Origin: Sphingomonas aliaeris
Lineage (GTDB): Bacteria > Pseudomonadota > Alphaproteobacteria > Sphingomonadales > Sphingomonadaceae
DNA: 64,000 bases
NCBI RefSeq assembly: GCF_016743815.1
Contig: NZ_CP061035.1
Span: 2,482,501-2,546,500 of the forward strand
Reading direction: 5' to 3'
Part shown: in pieces, positions 43,170 through 56,637 of the stretch
Position numbering within the stretch: position 1 is the first letter of the stretch
Layout of the letters: every line of letters begins with the position of its first letter
The notes under the pieces: generated by a model
What the model was told of the DNA's origin: nothing
The model's input: the letters and a program-made list of their open reading frames with translations, nothing else
Database searches by the model: none
Position numbers and translations under genes: made by a program

Positions 43170-44417
43170 TCACGCGCCCCACGCCTCCAGCGCCGCGTCT
43201 ACCCCCGCCCCCGCCGGCACCGCAAACCCCTCCGCGCGCAATACGCTCTCCAGCGCGCCCAGCGTGATCAACACCTTATGCTTCATCGCATTGTATCCCA
43301 TCGCGCCGATCCGCCAGATCTTGCCCTGCAACGGCCCGAACGCCGCGCCGATCTCGATCTCGAAATCCTCGCGCATCCGCGCCCGCACGCGTTCGCCGTC
43401 CACGCCCTCGGGGATCAGGATGCCGGTCACGTTCGTCATCCGGTGCGCATCGTCGCCGAACACCGTCAGCCCCATCGCGCGCGCGCCCGCGACGACCGCG
43501 CGACCCGCCGCCGCATGCCGTGCGAAGCGCGCCTCCAGCCCCTCGCCGAGCGCGACGCGGGCGCATTCCCGCGCGCCGTACAGCATCGTCGTCGCTTCGG
43601 TGTGGTGGTTCAGCCGCTTGTCCGACCAGTAATCCATGATCATCGCCAGATCGAAATAGTTCGAACCGATCCGCACGCCCGATCCGTCCACGATATCGTC
43701 GCGCCGGATCCCCTTCTCGACATGCCGGCGCGAGAAGATCCGCTCCGCCGCTGCGTCCGAAATCGTGATCGGCGCGGAGCCGGATGGCCCGCCGAGACAC
43801 TTCTGCAAGCCTCCGGTGACGACATCCAGACCCCAGGTGTCCGCCTGCATCGCCATCCCGCCCAGCGTCGCGGTCGCATCGACATAGGACAAGGCACCAC
43901 TAATGCGGCACAGATCGCCCAGCCCCGCGAGAGGTTGCGCCATCGTCGTCGACGTATCCCCGTGAACGGTCGCGACCACCTTGGGACGGGTCCGCGCGAT
44001 CGCCGTTTCGATGTCCGCCAGCGGCACCACCTGCCCCCACGGCGCGCTCACGGTTTCGATCACCGCGCCGATCCGTTCGAGTATTTCCGTCAGCAACAGC
44101 CCGAACCGGCCGAAATCCACCACCAACACCGTATCGCCCGGCGCGACCAGCGAGATCAGGCTCGCCTCGATCGCCGAGCGTGCCGTGCCGTCGATCAGGA
44201 ACGTCCAGCGATTGGCCGTCCCGAACACCGGCCGATACAGCGCCATCACCTGGTTCATGTACGCCGTCATTTCGGGGTCGAACTGGCCAAGCAGATCGGC
44301 GGACATCGCGCGCAGCACGCGGGGATGCGCGTTGACCGGCCCCGGCCCCATCAACAGCCGCTGCGGCGGATCGATCTCTCCGAACAAGTCAGGCGTCACT
44401 TGCGGCTCCAATTCCAC
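43170..44417 (-). CDS. pucG: (S)-ureidoglycine-glyoxylate aminotransferase
   Basis: PLP enzyme that transfers the amino group of ureidoglycine to glyoxylate, giving oxalurate and glycine. 415 residues, fold type I. RLLMGPGPVNAHPRVLRAMS, TFLIDGTARSAIEASLISLV, YVDATATLGGMAMQADTWGL and the PLP-Lys segment VVTGGLQKCLGGPSGSAPIT. GTG 44417 start overlaps allC by 29 bases; a GTG at 44399 is an alternative with an 11-base overlap. Its product oxalurate is the substrate expected for the hpx genes upstream, tying both halves of the cluster together. Confidence 0.92.
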   Translation of the reverse strand: MELEPQVTPDLFGEIDPPQRLLMGPGPVNAHPRVLRAMSADLLGQFDPEMTAYMNQVMALYRPVFGTANRWTFLIDGTARSAIEASLISLVAPGDTVLVVDFGRFGLLLTEILERIGAVIETVSAPWGQVVPLADIETAIARTRPKVVATVHGDTSTTMAQPLAGLGDLCRISGALSYVDATATLGGMAMQADTWGLDVVTGGLQKCLGGPSGSAPITISDAAAERIFSRRHVEKGIRRDDIVDGSGVRIGSNYFDLAMIMDYWSDKRLNHHTEATTMLYGARECARVALGEGLEARFARHAAAGRAVVAGARAMGLTVFGDDAHRMTNVTGILIPEGVDGERVRARMREDFEIEIGAAFGPLQGKIWRIGAMGYNAMKHKVLITLGALESVLRAEGFAVPAGAGVDAALEAWGA

Positions 44418-45663
44418 GATGCTCCGGCGTCTCGATGAACCCCAATGCTTCTATGAACCGAAGCATGACGCGCAGCGCGATCTCGACATCGCCCACCGCG
44501 ACCTGCTCGGCTCGATTGTGACTGATGCCGCCTGCGCAGGCGATAAACAACATCGCCGTCGGGCAAAGCCGCGCCAGGATCATGGCGTCATGCCCGGCCC
44601 CGCTCGCCAGCCGCCGATCGGGCTGGCCCTCTGCCCGCGCCGCCTCGGCCATCGCCTCCACCAGAACCGGATCGCACAGGCTGGCCGGCAGGTCATTGGT
44701 CCGCTCGATCGTCACGCCCATTCCGCGCGCCGCGCCGATCCGGCCGATCGCATCGCGGATCGCGCGCGCCGCTTCGTCCCGCACCGCGCCGTCCAGCGCG
44801 CGGATATCGATCGAAAATCCTACCCGCCCGGGGATGACGTTGGTCGCATTGGGCGCGACGATCATCCGCCCGACCGTCGCCACCAGATCCGCCGGGCCGT
44901 TCTGTCCCGCCTGCTCGACCGCCAGCACGATCTCCGCCGCCGCAGCCAGCGCATCGCGGCGCAAGGCCATCGATGTCGTGCCCGCATGCCCGGCCATCCC
45001 CTCGATCACCACACGGTATCGCAGTTGCGACGCGATGCCCGTGACGATGCCGACCGCCAGTCCCTCGATATCCAGCGCGGGCCCCTGCTCGATATGCGCC
45101 TCCAGATAGGCGAAAACCGATCCCGGATCGCGTCGTGCGGTATACACATCGCCGGCGGAGAAAGCCGCCAGCGCCTCCGCCGCCGAAACCCCGTTCGCGT
45201 CGCGGACCGCCAGTGCCTCGGCGGTCACATCGCCGACCAATGCCCGGCTCGTCAGCATCGCGCTCGGAAAGCGCGACCCTTCCTCGTCACCGAACGCGAT
45301 CACCTCGATCGCGAACGGCATCCGACGGCCGGACCGGTGCAGTGCGGCGACGCATTCTATTCCCAGCATGACCCCCAAAGGTCCATCATACCGCCCAGCA
45401 TCGCGGACGCTGTCGATATGGCTGCCGATCAGCAGTGCAGGCGCATCCGGCGTGGTGGCGTCATAGCGGCCGATCAGATTGGTCGCCCCATCGATGCGCA
45501 CCGTCATGCCGGCCTCCGCCATCCATTCCGCCACGCGCCCCTGCGTCGCGCCGAAGGCCGGCGTCATCCACGCGCGGAACAGCATATCCGGCGCATCGCT
45601 ATAGGGGGACACCCCCAGCGCATCGCAGCGCGCCACCGCCCGTGCGCCACCCGGATGATCCAT
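44389..45663 (-). CDS. allC: Allantoate amidohydrolase (M20 family)
   Basis: Hydrolyses allantoate to ureidoglycine, NH3 and CO2. 424 residues. Binuclear metal site GSHIDSVRDAGRYDGPLGVM, catalytic FGDEEGSRFPSAML, then EAHIEQGPALD and the dimerisation-domain MAGHAGTTSMALRRDALAAA; C-terminal SGAGHDAMILARLCPTAM. The same fold also covers N-carbamoyl amino acid hydrolases, but context makes allantoate by far the likeliest. ATG 45663 is 2 bases after the HpxW stop. Confidence 0.92.
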   Translation of the reverse strand: MDHPGGARAVARCDALGVSPYSDAPDMLFRAWMTPAFGATQGRVAEWMAEAGMTVRIDGATNLIGRYDATTPDAPALLIGSHIDSVRDAGRYDGPLGVMLGIECVAALHRSGRRMPFAIEVIAFGDEEGSRFPSAMLTSRALVGDVTAEALAVRDANGVSAAEALAAFSAGDVYTARRDPGSVFAYLEAHIEQGPALDIEGLAVGIVTGIASQLRYRVVIEGMAGHAGTTSMALRRDALAAAAEIVLAVEQAGQNGPADLVATVGRMIVAPNATNVIPGRVGFSIDIRALDGAVRDEAARAIRDAIGRIGAARGMGVTIERTNDLPASLCDPVLVEAMAEAARAEGQPDRRLASGAGHDAMILARLCPTAMLFIACAGGISHNRAEQVAVGDVEIALRVMLRFIEALGFIETPEHRGIGAASDA

Positions 45664-45665
45664 AG

Positions 45666-47246
45666 TCACCACGCGGCGACCGCACCGTCGCTGCGCGGGT
45701 CGGTCGCCCCTTCCAGCACGCCGGATGGATGCCGGACGATCGCCCCGGCATGCCCCATCGTCGCGGTGAACGGGTCGAGCAATTCCACCTGATGCCCGGC
45801 CGCGACCAACTGCTCGTACAGCGCGGGCGGGAAGCGATCCTCGATTTTCAGGCTGGTGCTGGCATCGCCCCACGTCTTGCCCAGCAGCCAACGGGGCCGG
45901 GTGATCGCCTCCTGCAACGGTACGCCGTAGTGGGCGTAGCGCGAGAAGATCGCCGCCTGCGTCTGCGGCTGTCCCTCACCCCCCATCGTGCCATACGCCA
46001 TTACGCGCCCGTCATCGAATCGCGCCATTGCGGGATTGAGCGTGTGAAACGGTTTTCGCCCGGGTTTCAATGCGTTCCACCCCGTTTCCGCCAACCGGAA
46101 CGAGCTACCCCGGTTTTGCCATGTGATCCCCGTCCCCGGAAGAACGATACCCGAACCATATTCGAAATACGTGCTCTGGATGCAGGATACGACCCGCCCG
46201 TCGCGATCGGCCGCACCGAACCAGCACGTATCGCCCGCGCTTGCCGGTCGCGGCCAGGGCAGGGCAGTTCGTGGATCGATCCGCACCGCCATCGCATCCA
46301 GCCCCGCCGCATCGTCCAGCCAACGCTGTGGATCGACCGTCATGTGCGCGAGATCGCCGACATGGTCGTCGCGGAACAGGAACGCCTGCTTGGTCGCCTC
46401 GACAAGACCGTGAATATGATCGAACCCCTCGGCCTCCGCCGCCGCCAGTCGGTCGAACAGTGCGAGGATCAGCAGGGATGCCACGCCCTGTGTCGGCGGC
46501 GCAGTGTTATACAGGGTCGCGCCGGAGACCGGGACGTGCAGCGGGTCCGGCCGGGTGGCGGCATGCAGGCGCAAATCCTGCCCGGTCACCGGACTGCCCA
46601 TCGCCTTCAGATCCGCCTCGATCATCCGTGCCAAAGGCCCGTCGTAAAAGGAACCGAAACCGTCCCGCGCGAGCAAGGTCAAAGCGCCCGCCAGCAATGG
46701 CTGACGCAGTATGTCACCCTCATTCAGCGGCTTACCGTCCGGTTCGAATATCGAAGCCCAAGCCCCTGGAAGATCGCGTAATTCCTCGCTCTTCGCAGCG
46801 CTGATCGCCGCGCCGCCGCGAGTCACCGGCACACCCCGCTCCGCATAGAGGATCGCATCGCGGAGCAATCGGGCGGGCGGCATAGAGCCGCCGCTGCCCG
46901 AGAGCGCCGCCGCCCAGCCGGAGACCGTCCCTGCGACCGTATTCGCAGCCAAAGGCCCCCGCCACGGTATCGTATCCAGTCCCGCATACAGGCCGAGGTC
47001 CGCCGAACGCGCCGCCGCCCCACAAGCGTCGATCGCGTGCATCCGCCCGTCCGGTTCGGCGATCAGCCAGAACCCGTCGCCGCCGATCCCGGTCATGTGC
47101 GGATAGACCACTGCCAGCGTCGCGGCGACCGCGACCGTCGCCTCCACTGCATTCCCGCCGTCGCGCAAGATGCTCAGTCCTGCCTGCGCCGCCAGATGAT
47201 GCGGCGCGGTCACCATGCCGTTCAGGCTCGTCACGTCGTGGATCAT
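45666..47246 (-). CDS. hpxW: HpxW-type oxamate amidohydrolase (gamma-glutamyltransferase family)
   Basis: Ntn hydrolase of 526 residues, made as a precursor that cleaves itself before a catalytic Thr. The processing site is ASAGDTCWFGAADRDGRVVS, with Thr as the new N-terminus of the small subunit; N-terminal MVTAPHHLAAQAGLSILRDG and HMTGIGGDGFWLIAEP, C-terminal MAYGTMGGEGQPQTQAAIFS. Lacks an export signal, unlike periplasmic GGT. HpxW proteins convert oxamate to oxalate and ammonia; assignment supported by the purine context. Confidence 0.88.
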   Translation of the reverse strand: MIHDVTSLNGMVTAPHHLAAQAGLSILRDGGNAVEATVAVAATLAVVYPHMTGIGGDGFWLIAEPDGRMHAIDACGAAARSADLGLYAGLDTIPWRGPLAANTVAGTVSGWAAALSGSGGSMPPARLLRDAILYAERGVPVTRGGAAISAAKSEELRDLPGAWASIFEPDGKPLNEGDILRQPLLAGALTLLARDGFGSFYDGPLARMIEADLKAMGSPVTGQDLRLHAATRPDPLHVPVSGATLYNTAPPTQGVASLLILALFDRLAAAEAEGFDHIHGLVEATKQAFLFRDDHVGDLAHMTVDPQRWLDDAAGLDAMAVRIDPRTALPWPRPASAGDTCWFGAADRDGRVVSCIQSTYFEYGSGIVLPGTGITWQNRGSSFRLAETGWNALKPGRKPFHTLNPAMARFDDGRVMAYGTMGGEGQPQTQAAIFSRYAHYGVPLQEAITRPRWLLGKTWGDASTSLKIEDRFPPALYEQLVAAGHQVELLDPFTATMGHAGAIVRHPSGVLEGATDPRSDGAVAAW

Positions 47247-47431
47247 TCCGCTTCATGCCCATCGCCCGGCCGCCCGGCAATCCGCACGGCGGATGCGCAC
47301 GATGGCGGCGTCAGGCGTAGGTCGGTCGGCATGCGGTCGTCCCCCGATCGTGCCAGACATCCTTCCCGTCGAACCGGTCGTTGCCGGTCCGACGACGCAG
47401 CCTATCATGCCGTCAGCGAAGCGAAAGCCCT

Positions 47432-48748
47432 TTAAAAGACGGGCACTGATCCGATTACGCCGTCGCGTTCCAGGCGCTTCGCATAAGCAAACAGCGCGCC
47501 CTCGCGACCCGGCCATCCGATCAGCTGGACGCCCAGCGGCAATCCGTTCGGGAGGCTGAGCGGCGCGGCGATCACCGGCAGGCCGATAAAGCTGATCGGC
47601 TGCGTCAGCCGCCCCAGATGCGCGCGCGCCGGAACGCGTTCGCCATCGACCGTCACGACCGGATCGGCGATCGTCGGCGCGACTTCCCCCACGCACGGTG
47701 CTACCAACACGTCATACGTCTCGAACACCCGCTCGACTGTCGCGCGGAAACGCTCGCGTACCTCCAGCGCCGCGAGATAATGCGCCGCCGGCAACATCGC
47801 GCCCGCGATCAGCCGGTCGCGCGTAGCAGGATCGAACGCCATCGCCCGGCACCGTAATTCCGGCAGATGCCGCCGTCCGCCTTCCGCCGCAGTCATCAGG
47901 AAAGCTGCCGACCGCGCCTGTTCGACGTTCGGCAATGACAGCTCGGGCAGCGACCCAAACACCGCCAGCGCGCCCTGCATTTCATCCGAAAGATTGTCGG
48001 CAAACCAGTCAGTTAGCCGAGCAATCTTCTTTTCGTTCTCAATCGAAAAGGTGCTGCCTGCCAGCACTGTACATACTGCGGAAAGTTCATCGATCGATCC
48101 GGCGAACGGCCCGATATCGTCGAAGCTGTCGACGAACGGATAGACGCCCGCCATCGGCAGGCTGCCATGCGCGGGCTTGTACCCGTACAGTCCGCACAAG
48201 GCCGCCGGCACGCGGATCGACCCGTTCGTGTCCGATCCCAAAGCGACCGGGACCATTCCCGCTGCCACCGCCGCTGCAGACCCGCCGGAAGAACCCCCTG
48301 CCAAGCGGCTAATATCACATGGATTTTTTGTCGTGCCGAATGTCGCGTTGATCGTCGCGAAGCCGTATGCATACTCATCCATGTTGCAGGTCGCGACCAG
48401 TACCGCCCCCGCCGCCCGCATGCGGACGATGGCCTCCGCATCGCACGTCGCTGGTGGCGCATCGCGCAGCATCCCCGCCCCTGCGGTCGTCGCCAGCCCC
48501 GCCACGTCGAACAGGTCCTTCACTGCGTACGGCACGCCCGCCAGCGGCCCAGGATCGCCACCGCCCGCAACGATCGCATCCACCGCGCGCGCCTCATCCA
48601 GCGCACGGTCGGCCAGCACGCGCGTGATTGCGCCGATCGCTCCGTCCCGCTCGCGTATCCGCGCCAGGCTGCGTTCTGCGAAATCGATCGCGGTACGCCG
48701 TCCGGCCCGCACGTCCGCGGCGATATCCAGCGCGGATTCACTCGACAT
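47432..48748 (-). CDS. hpxY: AtzE/HpxY-type amidase
   Basis: Amidase-signature enzyme, 438 residues: Lys of the Ser-Ser-Lys triad in GVPYAVKDLFDVAGLATTAG, NMDEYAYGFATINATFGTTK, and the Gly/Ser motif LAGGSSGGSAAAVAAGMVPV followed by ALGSDTNGSIRVPAALCGLY. Paired with the 49-residue HpxX/AtzG-like protein, which it overlaps by 11 bases, as in the AtzE-AtzG hydrolase. Probably acts on oxalurate or a derivative. ATG 48748 is favoured over an earlier TTG. The 185-base gap before hpxW shows no supported gene. Confidence 0.85.
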   Translation of the reverse strand: MSSESALDIAADVRAGRRTAIDFAERSLARIRERDGAIGAITRVLADRALDEARAVDAIVAGGGDPGPLAGVPYAVKDLFDVAGLATTAGAGMLRDAPPATCDAEAIVRMRAAGAVLVATCNMDEYAYGFATINATFGTTKNPCDISRLAGGSSGGSAAAVAAGMVPVALGSDTNGSIRVPAALCGLYGYKPAHGSLPMAGVYPFVDSFDDIGPFAGSIDELSAVCTVLAGSTFSIENEKKIARLTDWFADNLSDEMQGALAVFGSLPELSLPNVEQARSAAFLMTAAEGGRRHLPELRCRAMAFDPATRDRLIAGAMLPAAHYLAALEVRERFRATVERVFETYDVLVAPCVGEVAPTIADPVVTVDGERVPARAHLGRLTQPISFIGLPVIAAPLSLPNGLPLGVQLIGWPGREGALFAYAKRLERDGVIGSVPVF

Positions 48749-48887
48749 CGGCGGCAATCCTGCGCGCGTGCTCCAGCAATACGGCCAGATTGCCGCTAAC
48801 GCCGGGCAGGCATTCTGCGGGAATGTCCAGACCGATCAGCGCCTTGGCAATCGTTTCGATCTCTATGTCGGAAAGTGGTGGCTGCAT
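48738..48887 (-). CDS. hpxX: HpxX/AtzG-like small subunit (DUF4089)
   Basis: A 49-residue protein beginning MQPPLSDIEIETIAKALIGL and ending EHARRIAADVE. It matches the DUF4089/AtzG family that forms a complex with AtzE-type amidases and stabilises them. It is the first gene of the purine cluster on the minus strand. A 10-base inverted repeat covers its start codon. It overlaps hpxY. Confidence 0.82.
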   Translation of the reverse strand: MQPPLSDIEIETIAKALIGLDIPAECLPGVSGNLAVLLEHARRIAADVE

Positions 48888-48921
48888 CCGGGCATCACAG
48901 CGCAAACCATCCCCGGATGCA
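48883..48921. promoter_or_regulatory. Perfect inverted repeat over the hpxX start
   Basis: TGCATCCGGG (48883-48892) and CCCGGATGCA (48912-48921) are exact inverted complements 19 bases apart. On the minus strand the second arm read contains the hpxX ATG, and a possible promoter (TTGCAT, 17-base spacer, TGTGAT) overlaps the element. It may be an operator for the purine cluster or an RNA hairpin hiding the start codon. Confidence 0.5.
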
Positions 48922-48932
48922 ATGCATCGGCG

Positions 48933-49406
48933 TCAGCGGACGACCGTATCCCGCTTCATGGGCGCCAGCTTCGCCAGCATCCGGTTCTGCGCGAGATACG
49001 GAACTTTCTCGTCCCGCATCGACGCTTGCAGATTCTCGACCAGCGCGTTGAAGTCCGCGGCCTGCAGCCCGAGGTCCTTGTGCGACGACTTCATTTCGCG
49101 CCCACTATAGTCGCACCCGCCGTTCAGGATGTAACAGAACTGCTCCTTCAGCGTCCGGCGCAGCCGCACGACATCCTGCCCCTTGAAAATGTCGGAGATG
49201 CGCGGATCGGCGATATTGCGATCGACCATCCCGTCGACGACCCGCGCGATGCCCTCCTTACCATGAAATGCCCGGAACATATCCTCGCCTTCGAACTGGC
49301 GCGCGCCGGCATTGGCGTTGCTATGTTCATAGGGTTCGACCGGATCTTCATTCGGCGGCGTAACAGCCTGCATGGAGAGCAAAGATGCCAGGAAGAACGA
49401 AATCAC
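48933..49406 (-). CDS. Exported group I truncated haemoglobin
   Basis: 157 residues. N-terminal hydrophobic leader (MISFFLASLLSMQAV; GTG start with GGAG 8 bases upstream) followed by a polar linker and a globin domain from ~residue 42: MFRAFHGKEGIARVVDGMVD, ISDIFKGQDVVRLRRTLKEQ, FCYILNGGCDYSGREMKSSH. The His in KSSHKDLG is the candidate proximal haem ligand. Such globins bind O2 or NO. An exported one is unusual and lies directly downstream of the DUF3034 gene in the same operon. Confidence 0.82.
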   Translation of the reverse strand: MISFFLASLLSMQAVTPPNEDPVEPYEHSNANAGARQFEGEDMFRAFHGKEGIARVVDGMVDRNIADPRISDIFKGQDVVRLRRTLKEQFCYILNGGCDYSGREMKSSHKDLGLQAADFNALVENLQASMRDEKVPYLAQNRMLAKLAPMKRDTVVR

Positions 49407-49422
49407 TGCTCACACTCCATGT

Positions 49423-50318
49423 TCACAAACTGCCCTGCACCGACAGGAAAAGCCCGCGCTGCCGCCGAACGGTCGCGACATCGCCCAGATCGACATAGGC
49501 GGCGGTGAGCGCGACGTGTTTCGAGGCCGACCATGCGGCGAACACATCCAGCCCGCGCTGTTCGCGCGCGAAACCCAGATTGCTCGGCCGCGTGCGATAT
49601 TCCGCCCCCACCAGCAGGTTGCGCCTGACCAGCATCCCGGCCGACCCTTCGAACTTTGCCTTATACGCGTCGTTCCGATCTCCGCCGAAGCCGAGCAGCC
49701 CGAACTGGTTGGCCTTGGTCACGCGCACCGTCGCATTGACGACCAGCGAGCGCGACAGGATGATCTTGGTCGCCGCGACGTAGAAATCCGTGCCGTTCGA
49801 CTGGCGCCCGCCCACCGCGCGGATGATCGGCGCCTTGTCCGCGCGCTTGTGCTGCACGCCGATCGATATCTGCGGCAGGATCCGGTCCTGATCGTAGACC
49901 GCGCTGCCGATCAACCGCACCTTCGCGCCGTAGATATCCTGTCCGAACCTGAAACCCTTGCCCAAGCCGAGCGCCGCGCCCGCATCCCGCGTGTCGAAGC
50001 TTTGCCGCGCGAACGACAGTTCCACGCGATCCTTGATCCCCACCGCGACACCGCCGCTGGTCAGGTCGAAATCCGGCAAGGCGACATAGGTCGCATGCGC
50101 CTTCGCACCGATCCCGGCATCCGTCTCGTTACCTGCGATCAACGCCCAACTCGCCAGCCCGCCGCCGGCCGCGCCCTCGACGCTGGAGACGCCGCCGGTC
50201 AGCAACAGCTTGCCGCCCTGGCGCATCTCGCCCGCCATCGCAGCCCGCGGCCCCGCCGCCGCAAGCCCCCGAGACATAGGATCGTCAACATCACCCGAAT
50301 CGCAACTTTCGGCATCAT
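49423..50318 (-). CDS. DUF3034 outer-membrane beta-barrel protein (one apparent frameshift)
   Basis: About 298 residues. Starting at ATG 50318 (or 50315) the frame reads PKVAIRVMLTILCLGG, an obvious signal peptide; adding one G to the run at 50266-50270 joins it to LAAAGPRAAMAGE and the mature body GKLLLTGGVSSVEGAAGGGL, ATYVALPDFDLTSGGVAVGI, DRVELSFARQSFDTRDAG, LIGSAVYDQDRILPQISIGV and RNLLVGAEYRTRPSNLGF. Alternating strands and the terminal hydrophobic segment suit a barrel. DUF3034 function is unknown. It is transcribed away from the cupredoxin gene. Confidence 0.82.
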
Positions 50319-50427
50319 TCTCGGCACGCTCCGGCACATCGTTCGTACCCTCTTGCCGCTGGATGGTTAGCGTTGTGTGAAAGACCCATTTACGTGTCCG
50401 AAAGGCTGGCGAGCTATCGCTCACTCC

Positions 50428-51030
50428 ATGCTTATCCGTCTGCTTTTCATCGCCTTGGGAGTGGTTTCGACCCCGTTCGCAGCGCACGCCGCGACCGCGA
50501 ATATCGACGTGCGCGGCCCGGACGGAAAGCCGCTGGCGGGTGCAGTCGTGATGATCGACACACCGAAGAAGCCCGCCGCGCCGATCCGCTTCACCTGGGG
50601 CACCGCCATGTCCCAGCGCAACATCCAGTTCGATCCGCACGTCCTGATCGTGCCGATCGGATCGACCGTCACCTTTCCGAATTTCGACAAGGTCCGCCAC
50701 CACGTCTATTCCTTCTCCAAGGCGAAGAAGTTCGACCTGAAGCTGTACGGGAAGGACGATACGCGCAGCGTGCTGTTCGACCATGCGGGCGCCGTCGCGC
50801 TCGGCTGTAACATCCATGACCAGATGAGCGCGTTCATCCTCGTCGTCGAAACGCCGTTCGCGGTGCAGACGGACGTCAACGGCCACGCGACGATCGCGGG
50901 CGTGCCCGCGGGCGGCGCGACCGTGAGGATCTGGCATCCGTCGATCCGCGCGAAGGATAATGTCCTCGCACAGCCCGCGACGATCGCTGCCACCGGCTTC
51001 ACCAACACCTACACGATCCGCGGGCGATGA
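50428..51030 (+). CDS. Periplasmic cupredoxin-like protein
   Basis: 200 residues with signal peptide MLIRLLFIALGVVSTPFAAH. A cupredoxin domain follows: VLIVPIGSTVTFPNFDKVRH, then HVYSF, and a Cys-x2-His-x2-Met sequence in ALGCNIHDQM; with the earlier His these are the ligands of a type 1 copper site. A carboxypeptidase-regulatory-like beta domain completes it (TDVNGHATIAGVPAGG). Such proteins are sometimes labelled methylamine utilization proteins, but no methylamine genes are here. Start set at ATG 50428 for the signal peptide. ATGA overlap with the next gene. Confidence 0.85.
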   Translation: MLIRLLFIALGVVSTPFAAHAATANIDVRGPDGKPLAGAVVMIDTPKKPAAPIRFTWGTAMSQRNIQFDPHVLIVPIGSTVTFPNFDKVRHHVYSFSKAKKFDLKLYGKDDTRSVLFDHAGAVALGCNIHDQMSAFILVVETPFAVQTDVNGHATIAGVPAGGATVRIWHPSIRAKDNVLAQPATIAATGFTNTYTIRGR

Positions 51031-53405
51031 CCGTTCCGGTTACCGAGACAAAGCGGGAGCGTCGGCGGCTGTTCGGCTTCCAGCATCTGCGCACACGTCT
51101 GGCAGTGCTGTATGCCGGGCTTTTCGCGATCACGATCGTCGCAGTGGCGATCGTCGCACAGGTGATGATCCGCAACCACGCGCAAAACTCGGTCCGTGCC
51201 GAGTTGTCGACCAGCGGTATCGTCTATGACCGCATCTGGGCATTGCGGGCGAAATCGCTGACGGGATCGGCCGACGTTCTGGCACGTGATTTCGGGTTCC
51301 GCAGCGCCGTCGCCAGCGGGGACGGACCGACCATCTCATCTGCCGTGGCGAACCTGCGCGCCCGCGCCGGTGTCGCCAACGCCTTCGTCGTCGATACCGG
51401 CGGCGACGTGATCGGCGACGGCCCGGCGGACCTGCGCGACGCCATCACCGATCTGCCCTCGACCTTTGCGGACGGCAGCAACAACGCCGTCATAGCGACG
51501 GATGCAGGCACCTATCGCCTGATCGTCGCACCGATCCTAGCCCCGGTGGAGATCGGGCAAGTCGTTTTCGCCGTTCCGCTGGACGCGACGGAGATGCGTG
51601 CGCTCGAACGATTGTCCGCCATTCCGCTCAGCGCGACGATGCTGCATCGCCGCGCCGATGGCCACTGGATGTCGACGGACCGTACCAGTCTGGGCGACGT
51701 TGCGCTTGACCGCTATGTGAACGGCGCGACCCGATCAAGCGGGACGAAGCTCGCCACGCTCGATCTGCCGGGCGGAAAGTCGTTCGCGCTGGCGATCCCC
51801 CTGGCCGGGCGTGCCGAGACACCAGACGCGGCTCTGTTGCTCAGCTACCCGCTCGAAACCGCGCTCGCATCGTATCGCTCGTTGCAGATCGGCATCGCGC
51901 TCGCCGGCGCGGTAGGGCTCATCCTCGTCCTGCTCGGCAGCCGTCGCCTCGCCAACGGCATCGCCCGCCCGATCGCTGCGCTGGATGCCGCCGCCAAGGC
52001 GCTGGAAGAAGGATCCCGCGCGGAATTGAAGGTCGAGGGGTCGGACGAGATCGCCCGCCTCGCCGAAAGCTTCAATACGATGTCCGCCGGTATCCTGGAG
52101 CGCGAACATCGCATCACGCACCTCGCCTTTCACGATTCGCTGACCGGCCTGCCCAACCGCACCTATTTTCGCCAGCAGATGGAGGCCGCCCTCATCCGCG
52201 CGCCCAAGATGGGGGAAAAGGCCGCCGTCCTGTGCCTCGATCTGGACGGGTTCAAAGGCGTCAACGACACGCTCGGCCATCCGGTCGGGGATGCGTTGCT
52301 GCGACAGGTCGGCATGATGCTGGACGATCTGGTCAAGGACGGCACCGTCTCCCGCCTCGGCGGCGACGAATTCGCAATCATCCTGTCCGGCCGGCTCGAT
52401 AACGATCGGCCACGCGCGCTGTCGCAACAGATTATCGACAAGTTCCGCGCTCCGATCCTGGTCGACGGGCATCAGATCGCAACGGGCGTCAGCATCGGCA
52501 TCGCGATCGGACCGGGCGATGGCGAGGATGCGGACCTGCTGCTGAAAAGCGCCGACCTTGCCCTGTACCGCGCGAAACAGGACGGGCGCGGCGTGTTCCG
52601 CTTCTTCGAACCCGCGCTCGACGCCGCCGCACGCAAGCGCCGCCAGCTCGAACTCGACCTGCGCGAGGCGTTGCTGACGGGCCAGTTCCGGCTCAATTAT
52701 CAACCTATCTTCGATCTCGCCAAGGACCGCATCGGCTGCTTCGAATCGCTGCTCCGCTGGGAGCATCCGACGCGCGGCAACGTGTCACCCAGCGAATTCA
52801 TTCCGGTGGCGGAGGAAACCGGCCTGATCGTCGCGATCGGCGAATGGGTGATGCACGAGGCGTGCCGTCAGGCTGCGGACTGGCCGTCCCATGTCCGCGT
52901 CGCGGTGAACGTGTCGCCACTCCAGTTCCGCAATTCCGGCTTTTCGAACATCATTTTCCAGGCGCTGACCCGCAGCGGCCTGCCCGCCAACCGGCTGGAG
53001 ATCGAGATCACCGAATCCGTTTTCCTGGAAGGCGAAGACGGGGTCCTGCAGGTGCTTCATCAACTGCGCGGCATGGGCGTTCGCATCGCGCTGGATGATT
53101 TCGGCACCGGCTATTCCTCGCTCAGCTATCTGCGCAGCTTTCCGTTCGACAAGATCAAGATCGACAAATCCTTCGTCGATCGCGTCGCGCAGGACGAAAG
53201 CTCGGCGGCGATCGTCCTCGCCATCGTCGACTTGGCCAAGGCGCTCAAGATGGAGACGACCGCCGAGGGCGTCGAGGATCGCGACCAGCTCGACCAGCTT
53301 CGCGGTCAGGGGTGTTCCAGCATCCAGGGTTATTGGTTCAGCCGCCCGGTCGAAGGCGGCGCGGTGCTCGATCTGATCGCGGAGCCGATGTCCGCGGCGG
53401 CGTGA
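51027..53405 (+). CDS. Membrane sensor GGDEF-EAL cyclic-di-GMP enzyme
   Basis: 792 residues. TM1 ~25-48 (LAVLYAGLFAITIVAVAIVA), a ~235-residue periplasmic sensor of Cache type, TM2 ~285-307, HAMP ~308-360, GGDEF with an intact SRLGGDEFAIIL (~440), EAL from ~555 with ESLLRWEHP in place of EALLRW (the middle residue tolerates change) and intact NVSPLQF, LDDFGTGYSSLSYLRSFPFD, KIDKSFV and TTAEGVED. Both synthesis and breakdown may be possible. Translationally coupled to the cupredoxin, so the copper protein may tune the sensor. Confidence 0.93.
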   Translation: MTVPVTETKRERRRLFGFQHLRTRLAVLYAGLFAITIVAVAIVAQVMIRNHAQNSVRAELSTSGIVYDRIWALRAKSLTGSADVLARDFGFRSAVASGDGPTISSAVANLRARAGVANAFVVDTGGDVIGDGPADLRDAITDLPSTFADGSNNAVIATDAGTYRLIVAPILAPVEIGQVVFAVPLDATEMRALERLSAIPLSATMLHRRADGHWMSTDRTSLGDVALDRYVNGATRSSGTKLATLDLPGGKSFALAIPLAGRAETPDAALLLSYPLETALASYRSLQIGIALAGAVGLILVLLGSRRLANGIARPIAALDAAAKALEEGSRAELKVEGSDEIARLAESFNTMSAGILEREHRITHLAFHDSLTGLPNRTYFRQQMEAALIRAPKMGEKAAVLCLDLDGFKGVNDTLGHPVGDALLRQVGMMLDDLVKDGTVSRLGGDEFAIILSGRLDNDRPRALSQQIIDKFRAPILVDGHQIATGVSIGIAIGPGDGEDADLLLKSADLALYRAKQDGRGVFRFFEPALDAAARKRRQLELDLREALLTGQFRLNYQPIFDLAKDRIGCFESLLRWEHPTRGNVSPSEFIPVAEETGLIVAIGEWVMHEACRQAADWPSHVRVAVNVSPLQFRNSGFSNIIFQALTRSGLPANRLEIEITESVFLEGEDGVLQVLHQLRGMGVRIALDDFGTGYSSLSYLRSFPFDKIKIDKSFVDRVAQDESSAAIVLAIVDLAKALKMETTAEGVEDRDQLDQLRGQGCSSIQGYWFSRPVEGGAVLDLIAEPMSAAA

Positions 53406-53502
53406 CGCACACCTGACGACAGCGCGGCCGTCCACCCACAGCCGCTATTCCCGCGCACGTTTCCATCGGCTACGCCCGCGGCAAAAGCGGAGGAATGCCG
53501 AC

Positions 53503-54027
53503 ATGCCACAATATGAAATCGGCGGGAAACGCCCTGCCCTCGCGTCCGGCGCGTGGATCGCCCCCAGTGCGGACCTGATCGGCGATGTCCAATTGGCGGA
53601 GGATGCGAACGTCTGGTTCGGCGCTGTCCTGCGCGGCGACAATACCCCGATCCTGATCGGCGAACGCAGCAACGTGCAGGAAGGCGCGATGTGCCACAGC
53701 GATCCCGGTGCGCCGCTGACCGTCGGGGCGGATTGCACGATCGGGCATCACGCGATCCTTCACGGCTGCACGATCGGCGACCGCGTGCTGATCGGGATGG
53801 GCGCGATCATCCTCAACCGCGCGACGATCGGGGACGGCTGCATCGTCGGCGCAGGCGCGCTGGTGACGGAGGACAAGGTGTTCGAACCCAACAGCCTGAT
53901 CGTCGGCAGCCCGGCCCGCGCAGTCCGTCAACTCGACGAGACCGCGCAAGCCATGCTGCGCGCATCGGCCAGCCATTATGCCGAAAAGGCCCATGCCTGC
54001 GCCACCGGGCTCAAGCGCGTAGACTGA
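53503..54027 (+). CDS. Gamma-class carbonic anhydrase-like hexapeptide protein
   Basis: 174 residues, left-handed beta-helix built of hexapeptide repeats. APSADLIGDVQLAEDANVWF, GAVLRGDNTPILIGERSNVQ, MCHSDPGAPLTVGADCTIGH, HAILHGCTIGDRVLIGMGAI. Metal-binding His residues occur in CHSD and GHHAILHG, as in the YrdA/PaaY group. Forms a trimer; activity as a CO2 hydratase or CoA-thioesterase-like role is not determined. GGAGG is 9 bases before the ATG. Confidence 0.92.
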   Translation: MPQYEIGGKRPALASGAWIAPSADLIGDVQLAEDANVWFGAVLRGDNTPILIGERSNVQEGAMCHSDPGAPLTVGADCTIGHHAILHGCTIGDRVLIGMGAIILNRATIGDGCIVGAGALVTEDKVFEPNSLIVGSPARAVRQLDETAQAMLRASASHYAEKAHACATGLKRVD

Positions 54028-54051
54028 GCCCCCGAAGGAGCGGGCGGCCGG

Positions 54052-56637
54052 TCAGCCGCCCGCCTCCCAGGCTGTGACGGCCGGACGCAACCGCTCGGTC
54101 ACCTCGCGCCGCGCCGCCATGCCGGCGACGACGCGTGCAGCGCCGCCGCGGGCGTCCACCGGCAGGTTCTTCGCCGCGAACGCCGTGATCTTCGCCGGCA
54201 TCGCCGGATCGTTCGATCCCGCCCCCAGGCCCGGTACGTAGTTCGACCGTGCGCTCGCTTCCGTGAAGCTGTCGACCAGAGCGAAGTTCGCGACGGCGAA
54301 GTCGAACGCCATGTCCGGATGCTGCCCAGCGACAGCGCGCAGCAGGCTCGCCTTTTGCGGCGCGGTGATCCGGTCCGTCTTGATCAGGTCCAGCGCGCGC
54401 TTCGCCAGCGCGTCGTCCTTCGTGATCCCCAGCGCGCGGATATAGGCGTTGCGCCCGACCGGGTTCTTCTCGGCAAGCGCGATCTGCAACAACGCATCCC
54501 ATTCGGCCGGGCTGGCGTTCAACGCATAGGTCGTGATGATCGGGGTACGGATCGCCGGCGGAATCGCATTCGTATCGGTCCGCAATGCCGCGACATACGT
54601 CCGCGCCATGGCCATGATTTCCGCATCGCCCGTCGCACCCAGCGTGCCGATCAGCGTCTCACGCAAATTGCTGACTAGCGGCGACTCGCCCGCCTTGGCC
54701 CGGTATCCCACACGCTTCATCACCGGCGCCAGCAAGGCCGCATTCCGGCGTGCGAGCGTATCGCCCAGCGGCGTACCCTCGAATCGGTCGGCGATATGGC
54801 CGACCTGCCCGGCGACCATCGCCCATTCGATCGGATCCGCACCGACCTCGACCTTGTCGAGCAGCGCCAGATAGGCAGACAGGTCCTGATCGCCACTCAG
54901 CGCCAGTGCGAAATCGTCGCCCAGCGTGCCGAGCTGATCCCTCAGCGGCAGCCGCGTGAAATCGCGCACGATCGCCGCATGGCCCGCCGCGTCGTATCGT
55001 GCGCGCAGATAGCTGCCCTTGCCCTGGTTCAGCACGATCGTGCCGCAATCCTTCAACGTCACCACCGTCGGCGCAGCGCCGCGCACGGTCATATCGCTCT
55101 CCGCTTGCCCCAGCACGCCAAGGCGAAGCGGCACGCGCCACGTCAGCGGCTGCTTCGACGCGGCATCCAACCCGAAACGGCCCTGCGTCAGCGTCGCCTT
55201 GGTCATCCCCCCGCTGCACGTGGCTCCGGTCAGCGTGACCAGCGGAACGCCCGGTTGCAGCGTGAAATCATGCGCGATGTCAGCAACCCGCTTGCCCGCC
55301 GCCGCCGATAGCTCCGCCCACAATTGCTCCGTGACGGTGTTGCCGTATTTGTACTTCGCCATGTAGCGGCGGATGCCGTCGCGGAACACATCCGGCCCCA
55401 GCGTCGATTCCATCATGCCGATCACCGCCTGACCCTTTTGATAAGTGATGCCGTCGAACGCCTCGCCGATCTGGTCGACCGTCTTGATCGGACGGATGAT
55501 CGGGTGCGTCGCCGCGGTGGCATCGGCGGCCAGCGCCGCCTCCCGGTCGAACGACACCGCGGTCGCCGCGCCGTTCCAATTCGGGTTCAGATCGGTCGAG
55601 GCCTTGTTTTCCATCCACGACGCGAACCCCTCGTTCAGCCACAGATCGTCCCACCACGCCATCGTGACGAGATCGCCGAACCATTGGTGCGCCATCTCAT
55701 GCGCGACGACGGTGTAGATGCGCTGCCGGTTGCTCTCCGTCGCGCGTGCCGGATCGAACAGCAATTCGTTCTCAAAATAGAAGATGGCGCCCCAGTTCTC
55801 CATCGCGCCGAACGTCTGGCTGGATCCGGGGCCGGCGATCATGTCCATCTTGGGCAGCGGGTACGGGGTCCCGAAATAGTCGTTGTAATAGTCGAGCAGA
55901 CGCTTCGCCGCGCCAAGCGCATAGTCACCCTGCGCACCGACACCGCGACGGCTGATGATGCCGATCTCGGTCTTGCCCGCCATGACGGTGTGGCGCTCCA
56001 TGTCCCCCATGCCGAGGAACATCAGGTAGCTGGACATCTTCGGCGACACGTCGAAGCTGTACACTTGCGTGCCGTCCGCCTGTTTTGTCACGCTCGTCGC
56101 CGGCATGTTCGAAAAGGCGAGTTGCCCCGCCGGCGCCACCGCGCTCAGCTTGAACGTCGCCTTGAACGACGGCTCGTCCCAGATCGGCGCGAAACGGCGT
56201 GCGTCGGGCGCCTCGAACTGCGTCGCGAGCATCCGCGACGCGCTCCCGTCCTGATTCTTATAGTCGATCGCGAACAGCCCGAGCGGCGATTGGTTGATCT
56301 TGCCGCTCCACGCAAACCGCAGTTCGTGCACGCCCTTCGTCGCAGCCTTGGGCAGCGTCACCGTCAGTTGCTGCAATTCGGCGTCCTGCGCCACCGCGAC
56401 CTTTGCGCCGTCGAACGTCGCCGTCGTGATCGTCAGGTCCGCGGCGTTCAGCGTGATCGTCCGCGTCGCCTCGCGCACATCGACCGTGATCGCCTCGGTG
56501 CCCGCAAACGTCATCGCTTTCGCGTCCGGCGTGATCCGAATATCGTACGAAATCGGCGCGACATTGGTCGGAAGCTGACCCGCGGCAAAGGCAGGCGACG
56601 AAATACCAAGCAAAAGCAACGGGATGATACGTTTCAT
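54052..56637 (-). CDS. Exported M1-family aminopeptidase
   Basis: 861 residues. Signal peptide MKRIIPLLLLGISSPAFAAG; N-terminal saddle domain; substrate-recognition QTFGAMENWGAIFYFENELL; zinc site YTVVAHEMAHQWFGDLVTMA (HExxH near residue 313) with the third ligand in LWLNEGFASWMENKAS; C-terminal ERAP1-like helices. Trims N-terminal residues from periplasmic or extracellular peptides. ATG 56637 is preferred because the signal peptide begins there. Confidence 0.94.
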   Translation of the reverse strand: MKRIIPLLLLGISSPAFAAGQLPTNVAPISYDIRITPDAKAMTFAGTEAITVDVREATRTITLNAADLTITTATFDGAKVAVAQDAELQQLTVTLPKAATKGVHELRFAWSGKINQSPLGLFAIDYKNQDGSASRMLATQFEAPDARRFAPIWDEPSFKATFKLSAVAPAGQLAFSNMPATSVTKQADGTQVYSFDVSPKMSSYLMFLGMGDMERHTVMAGKTEIGIISRRGVGAQGDYALGAAKRLLDYYNDYFGTPYPLPKMDMIAGPGSSQTFGAMENWGAIFYFENELLFDPARATESNRQRIYTVVAHEMAHQWFGDLVTMAWWDDLWLNEGFASWMENKASTDLNPNWNGAATAVSFDREAALAADATAATHPIIRPIKTVDQIGEAFDGITYQKGQAVIGMMESTLGPDVFRDGIRRYMAKYKYGNTVTEQLWAELSAAAGKRVADIAHDFTLQPGVPLVTLTGATCSGGMTKATLTQGRFGLDAASKQPLTWRVPLRLGVLGQAESDMTVRGAAPTVVTLKDCGTIVLNQGKGSYLRARYDAAGHAAIVRDFTRLPLRDQLGTLGDDFALALSGDQDLSAYLALLDKVEVGADPIEWAMVAGQVGHIADRFEGTPLGDTLARRNAALLAPVMKRVGYRAKAGESPLVSNLRETLIGTLGATGDAEIMAMARTYVAALRTDTNAIPPAIRTPIITTYALNASPAEWDALLQIALAEKNPVGRNAYIRALGITKDDALAKRALDLIKTDRITAPQKASLLRAVAGQHPDMAFDFAVANFALVDSFTEASARSNYVPGLGAGSNDPAMPAKITAFAAKNLPVDARGGAARVVAGMAARREVTERLRPAVTAWEAGG

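Follow-up and report, generated by a model that had tools for sequence, protein, structure and literature searches.

The locus described here lies at positions 48933..53405 of a 64,000-nucleotide stretch of the Sphingomonas aliaeris genome (4.26 Mb, 3 contigs), hereafter referred to as the window, and comprises four genes on either side of a divergent intergenic region (Table 1): a DUF3034 protein and an exported truncated haemoglobin (globin) are encoded leftward, and a periplasmic cupredoxin and a membrane protein of cyclic di-GMP (c-di-GMP) metabolism rightward. All four genes were confirmed at the places assigned to them in a preliminary description of the window, as was the ATGA overlap between the two rightward genes (51027-51030); the divergent region, which that description put at 110 bases, measures 109 bases between ATG 50318 and ATG 50428. 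The latter codon is more likely to be the start of the cupredoxin than GTG 50377, because the 99%-identical protein P0001 starts there.

Table 1. Features of the four-gene locus, in window coordinates.
Feature	Position	Strand	Evidence or remark
Exported group-1-like truncated haemoglobin, 157 residues, GTG start, hydrophobic N-terminus	48933..49406	-	PF01152 match
DUF3034 protein, predicted outer-membrane beta-barrel, conserved Gly-rich N-terminal segment	49423..~50277	-	PF11231 match
DUF3034 signal-peptide start, frame differs from barrel	50278..50318	-	Reading from ATG 50339: MCRSVPRMMPKVAIRVMLTILCLGGL...
Divergent intergenic region, 109 bases, ATG 50318(-) to ATG 50428(+)	50319..50427	.	
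Periplasmic cupredoxin inside carboxypeptidase-regulatory (transthyretin-like) domain	50428..51030	+	Model, profile and structure matches
Inner-membrane dCache_3-HAMP-GGDEF-EAL protein, 792 residues	51027..53405	+	All four domains above Pfam cut-offs

The four genes are linked well beyond the close relatives of S. aliaeris. In a sample of 398 Pseudomonadota genomes from 212 genera, accompanied by 14 control genomes, DUF3034 (PF11231) was identified in 39 Pseudomonadota genomes (13 families, 27 of the 212 genera) and in none of the controls. The exported globin adjoins DUF3034 in all 39 genomes, the window included, and all four genes occur together in 30 of them (the window and 29 of the 38 other loci), so that the co-occurrence search, set beforehand as a check on the preliminary description, came out in favour of a conserved linkage. 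A cupredoxin profile match (E <= 1e-10) was obtained in 38 of the 39 DUF3034 genomes versus 22 of the 359 others (Fisher 2.7e-36, a value inflated by relatedness); because of this inflation, the comparison was repeated within Sphingomonadaceae, where DUF3034 is present in 18 of 149 genomes (16 of 96 genera) and cupredoxin (E <= 1e-20) in 18/18 DUF3034 genomes versus 2/131 others, one of them partial (Fisher 2.7e-21). By their coordinates, all 18 of these cupredoxins are immediately divergent from DUF3034. The whole-genome profile searches scored the best first-look candidates (for cupredoxin, 8 in most genomes; for globin, 11; for the Sphingomonadaceae search, 22), and the counts of genomes with a profile match are lower bounds. 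With the exported-globin profile, 41 intact places reached at least 126 bits, of which 39 are beside DUF3034; a degenerate globin copy (G078 C3) scored 125.8 bits, and the next match falls to 83 bits. The remaining two places (L121, L122) are exported globins that share the Cys pair of the others and stand alone: DUF3034 was not found near them.

The complete set is conserved through three gene orders. The divergent order of the window recurs at six further loci, all within the window's class; the order cupredoxin-EAL-DUF3034-globin is found at 22 loci and also in Coralloluteibacterium (L028); and the order DUF3034-globin-cupredoxin-EAL is found on a Caballeronia plasmid as well as at L078. 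A Novosphingobium plasmid has the four-gene set in divergent form according to its public annotation, DUF3034 is present on 13 of 72,556 plasmid records, and several Pseudomonas species carry it. The 31 loci that were found by way of the cupredoxin show a wider pairing of this protein with GGDEF-EAL genes, including on contigs binned as Acidobacteriota; DUF3034 and globin are also present at 11 of these, one of which (L004) has decayed. The unit is composed of two nested pairs, namely the widely distributed cupredoxin and EAL enzyme and the nearly inseparable DUF3034 and globin. Chance neighbourhood of the four genes is excluded by the linkage statistics.

The window DUF3034 protein scores 329 bits against PF11231 (cut-off 25). 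Its structure model has a 12-strand barrel (predicted local distance difference test, pLDDT, 78, with residues 1-29 below 50) and matches solved barrels, so that DUF3034 models as a 12-strand outer-membrane beta-barrel. The nearest folds are FapF, a secretion barrel, and KdgM/NanC, which are substrate porins; the match lists name other barrel families as well, and the absence of a given family from them is uninformative. In the window, the signal peptide of this protein (ATG 50318, which lies in the frame that opens at ATG 50339) is out of frame with the barrel; in P0121 and P0122, relatives that are 96-98% identical, signal peptide and barrel share one frame. The mismatch at window 50200-50340 would reflect an error in the sequence or else a frame break of recent origin. 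Decaying extra DUF3034-globin pairs with broken frames were also observed at L004 3813-5216 (S. glacialis) and L100 (G078 C3). S. glacialis has a further DUF3034 protein (P0168) and cupredoxin (P0034), both listed with a 1,678,113-base contig.

The window globin matches Pfam Bac_globin (PF01152) with 33.5 bits (cut-off 21), and its best PDB matches are group-1 truncated haemoglobins; residues 45-140 align ungapped to 3aq7, which we take to be the Tetrahymena group-1 protein, with the site numbering assumed for it. This alignment places Val61 at B10, Leu82 at E7, Leu86 at E11, and the proximal His109 at F8; Phe74 is at CD1, Leu122 presumably at G8 by comparison with HbN, and two cysteines are present (Cys91 and Cys98). 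The haem-ligand His, the CD1 Phe, and both cysteines are invariant in the 49 aligned globins. The distal positions are consistently apolar: B10 in 48/49 (L/V/I/M; one N), E7 in 49/49 (L/F/V/I), E11 in 49/49 (L/F), and B10, E7, E11, and G8 jointly in 45/49. The hydrogen-bonding TyrB10 and Gln E7/E11 of the O2/NO-dioxygenase HbN are absent from all 49 aligned globins. In the available part of a family survey, TyrB10 is reported in 80% of truncated haemoglobins, and the low O2 affinity of clade N accompanies Leu at E7, E11, and G8 (PMC4720485). Because its distal pocket is apolar, the globin is predicted to bind O2 weakly, with nitric oxide (NO) or carbon monoxide (CO) the comparatively better ligands.

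Export of the globin was judged by eye, the criteria being a hydrophobic N-terminus and a lipobox pattern in the stop-to-stop reading frames. All 48 relatives have a hydrophobic stretch ahead of the globin domain, and 25 of the 48 show the lipobox pattern, none of these 25 being from the 15 loci with the window's divergent arrangement. Globins of the divergent loci (L002-L011, L062-L067) have a conserved NAGA-like linker where other lineages have the lipobox; this linker, preceding the globin fold, could be a docking segment. A second, more distant truncated haemoglobin (L129) was observed within a genome that has the module, and many family f38 genomes have two tandem truncated-haemoglobin genes about 500 bases apart (e.g., G056:C44:10914-11723 and G188:C6:27923-28745).

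No Pfam cupredoxin domain matches the window cupredoxin. Its AlphaFold2 model (pLDDT 95) has a cupredoxin fold for which the best structure matches are amicyanin, plastocyanin, and NirK domains, and there are weak profile matches to a NirK chain (E 0.0005) and an amicyanin chain (E 0.002). According to the model, the cupredoxin fold sits within the transthyretin-like domain. The C-x2-H-x2-M copper site reads CNIHDQM, and the predicted copper ligands are His91, Cys127, His130, and Met133 (counted from ATG 50428); the four type-1 ligands are retained in all 63 rows that cover them in an alignment of 64. Four loci (L012, L030, L112, L123) have a cupredoxin-family member beside a GGDEF-like gene without the EAL motif, which suggests further kinds of output domain among the partners of the copper protein.

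In the c-di-GMP enzyme, the EAL motif ExLxRW, the DD(F/Y)G motif, and the EG glutamate are intact in 42/42 full-length partners at DUF3034 loci. The GGDEF motif [GSA]G[DE]E[FY], which is intact in the window protein, fits 20/42 of these partners. No RxxD I-site was seen by eye in the window enzyme, and among 76 partners of any length a simple I-site pattern occurs in a single one, which is not the window protein. Among 31 further full-length partners without DUF3034 nearby, 28 retain the EAL motif. Based on the conservation of EAL in 42/42 versus GGDEF in 20/42, the enzyme most likely acts as a phosphodiesterase that breaks c-di-GMP down, and selection appears to maintain this function. The protein identities read from the sequence letters in the preliminary description have thus held up: the outer-membrane-like DUF3034 protein agrees with the barrel model and its matches to solved barrels; the exported truncated haemoglobin with the Pfam match, the retained proximal His, and the hydrophobic N-terminus from which export is predicted; the cupredoxin and its Cys-x2-His-x2-Met site with the model, the profile and structure matches, and the invariant ligands; and the transmembrane Cache-HAMP-GGDEF-EAL protein with the four Pfam domains. 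Its designation of the last as a dual GGDEF-EAL enzyme stands for c-di-GMP metabolism as the output, but a phosphodiesterase is a likelier reading than an enzyme with both activities.

No fifth conserved gene was accepted among the top 25 neighbour groups of 48 loci. Six groups are larger than the rest, with 37 to 8 loci each, and were taken by eye for out-of-frame readings of the module's own genes; the largest other group, of chemoreceptor-like genes, is present at 5 loci, and a hexapeptide-repeat gene (window 53503) at 4. Inspection of these 48 loci by eye gave no redox, transporter, or haem-degradation gene that recurs beside the four. A c-di-GMP or other riboswitch was considered and rejected, the Rfam search of 48000-54500 having given one chance match far below the cut-off. 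The AtzE-type amidase at 47432-48757 was left out of the module, as it belongs to another pathway: window 44389-48757 is a separate catabolic cluster, with an AtzE-family amidase (531 bits, cut-off 461) and open reading frames that by eye resemble an M20-type amidohydrolase and a gamma-glutamyltransferase.

With a probability of about 0.42, we propose that the four genes form one envelope-spanning haem/copper signalling unit that sets c-di-GMP phosphodiesterase activity. The exported globin, which in many other lineages is predicted to be a lipoprotein, would act together with the DUF3034 barrel at the outer membrane and would bind a small haem ligand that needs no distal hydrogen bond, most likely NO, with CO or a changed haem redox state as alternatives. 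The periplasmic type-1 copper protein would carry or report the state of the globin to the dCache domain, through physical contact and either electron transfer or conformational change, and the inner-membrane enzyme would alter its phosphodiesterase activity such that c-di-GMP falls, or stops falling, thereby moving the cell between a surface-attached and a free-living state. The envelope gas, redox, or copper-sensing circuit of the preliminary description is retained here as a conserved multi-gene envelope unit with haem and copper ligands kept, with O2 a poorer guess than NO or CO in view of the apolar pocket. A more specific form of the proposal, a trans-envelope haem-copper wire in which the barrel-docked globin would sense NO or haem redox state, the transthyretin-scaffold cupredoxin would relay the signal, and the EAL enzyme would lower c-di-GMP, possibly with the Cys pair as a redox switch, is doubtful in its full detail; if true, it would constitute an extracytoplasmic gas-sensing c-di-GMP pathway.

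Several observations weigh against a single signalling unit. A complete local cupredoxin-EAL pair is missing beside the globin-barrel pair in 9 of the 39 genomes: at two loci (L068, L075) the cupredoxin is local and no EAL gene is directly adjacent on the same strand, at L073 the EAL gene is local and the cupredoxin elsewhere in the genome, and at five (L079, L081, L083, L084, L098) the pair is present elsewhere in the genome, a point in favour of the unit, with L083 having in addition a divergent local cupredoxin relative and the DUF3034 of L084 (G261) matching only from profile position 87 onward; the ninth genome (L072, G078) has no cupredoxin match at all. Conversely, 20 of the 31 cupredoxin-found loci have no globin and barrel nearby (some of the contigs being short), and 3/31 full-length partners outside DUF3034 loci are without the EAL motif. 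In S. aliaeris itself the signal peptide of the barrel is frame-broken. In an alignment of 73 rows, Cys, His, and Met are nowhere conserved in the periplasmic sensor region, and metal sensing would therefore need a partner, for which the cupredoxin is a candidate. NnrS, a marker of NO metabolism, shows no association with the module (19/39 module genomes versus 190/359 others, p = 0.74). In 91 regions upstream of the cupredoxin, at four-gene loci or otherwise, the FNR/DNR, sigma-54, and NsrR patterns were within the range of block shuffles, the counts being 8 (shuffle mean 8.1), 24 (18.9, maximum 26), and 6 (5.6).

An alternative that we regard as rather unlikely is that the locus encodes an envelope enzyme, in which the globin would turn over NO, O2, or peroxide at the outer membrane, the cupredoxin would supply or remove electrons, and the c-di-GMP enzyme would merely adjust lifestyle to the same condition. 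Type-1 copper proteins are classic electron carriers, and the structural matches of the cupredoxin to amicyanin, plastocyanin, and NirK domains are consistent with such a role. In the parts of the two papers available, O2 reduction is the role proposed for a periplasmic truncated haemoglobin of cable bacteria (PMC12093952), and a trHbN of a microaerophilic Fe oxidiser is proposed to be part of a terminal oxidase (PMC3770913). Yet the cupredoxin is more widely tied to the c-di-GMP enzyme than to the globin, and the inspected neighbourhoods hold no recurring redox gene. TyrB10 and GlnE11 serve as a pair in the NO dioxygenase HbN. The distal pocket of these globins is without that pair (residues as named in the available text of PMC4720485).

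It is also unlikely that the module is two independent, often co-inherited pairs, with cupredoxin and EAL enzyme as a copper/redox sensor and DUF3034 and globin as an outer-membrane pair for haem or gas handling: each pair does occur alone, but the globin-barrel pair is almost never without the cupredoxin (the same 38 of 39 genomes, and every Sphingomonadaceae genome with DUF3034), even where the two are unlinked. The fold matches of DUF3034 to FapF and KdgM/NanC, together with the lipobox pattern in about half of the globins, could instead point to uptake of haem, iron, or nutrients, or to globin export, with DUF3034 as the channel or secretion barrel and the globin as surface cargo or hemophore; this would leave the copper protein and the c-di-GMP enzyme unexplained, no transporter or haem-degradation gene was seen by eye to recur alongside, and we consider it improbable. 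That the genes are accidental neighbours with no shared function is barely credible given the linkage statistics and the persistence of the set in three gene orders, the lack of functional data being the sole point in its favour.

To our knowledge, the known bacterial pathways from NO to biofilm use cytoplasmic haem sensors. If the four genes do act as one signalling unit, a conserved outer-membrane sensor would be a new entry point for NO-to-biofilm signalling, and DUF3034, the apolar-pocket exported globin clade, and the copper proteins labelled ‘methylamine utilization’ would receive their first functional context. Sphingomonads, Pseudomonas, and Caballeronia are among the lineages that carry the genes, and the idea is therefore open to testing in common laboratory strains. 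No description of the four-gene module was found in the open-licence literature searched, in keeping with the statement in the preliminary description that no described system has these four parts. The term ‘DUF3034’ was found in two papers, neither of which, in the portions available, concerns the module: it occurs once in a legend about DUF3037, where it is probably a misprint (PMC12548924), and once for an actinobacterial membrane protein (PMC4255298); a further paper, similarly available in part, is unrelated (PMC6515357).

Among known systems, group 1 truncated haemoglobins of the HbN type share with the module globin the fold family and the proximal His and supply its best PDB matches; unlike these, the module globin is exported or a predicted lipoprotein, has an invariant Cys-x6-Cys, and lacks TyrB10 and GlnE7/E11. 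The periplasmic truncated haemoglobin of cable bacteria is likewise exported, but in the available text it is proposed to be an O2 reductase (PMC12093952). The cupredoxin shares its fold and the C-x2-H-x2-M copper loop with amicyanin, plastocyanin, and the type-1 copper domain of NirK. H-NOX and NosP, which have other folds and are cytoplasmic, resemble the module in that a haem protein reports gas to c-di-GMP metabolism; in the module, however, the haem protein is exported and has a globin fold, and there is no HNOB or FIST Pfam match at E <= 0.001. Among H-NOX proteins, a distal Tyr is needed for O2 binding, and those that lack it bind NO to the exclusion of O2, according to the available part of the source (PMC8738867). 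The YfiBNR system of Pseudomonas aeruginosa, as far as the available text describes it, likewise has an outer-membrane lipoprotein, a periplasmic protein, and an inner-membrane c-di-GMP enzyme responding to periplasmic signals. YfiN is a cyclase, whereas the module has an EAL-type output, a globin with a dedicated barrel as its outer part, and a copper protein as the proposed relay, and no YfiR or OmpA-type (YfiB) Pfam match (E <= 0.001) was found in its four proteins. On this comparison the module is a member of neither system, resembling YfiBNR in layout and H-NOX and NosP in logic.

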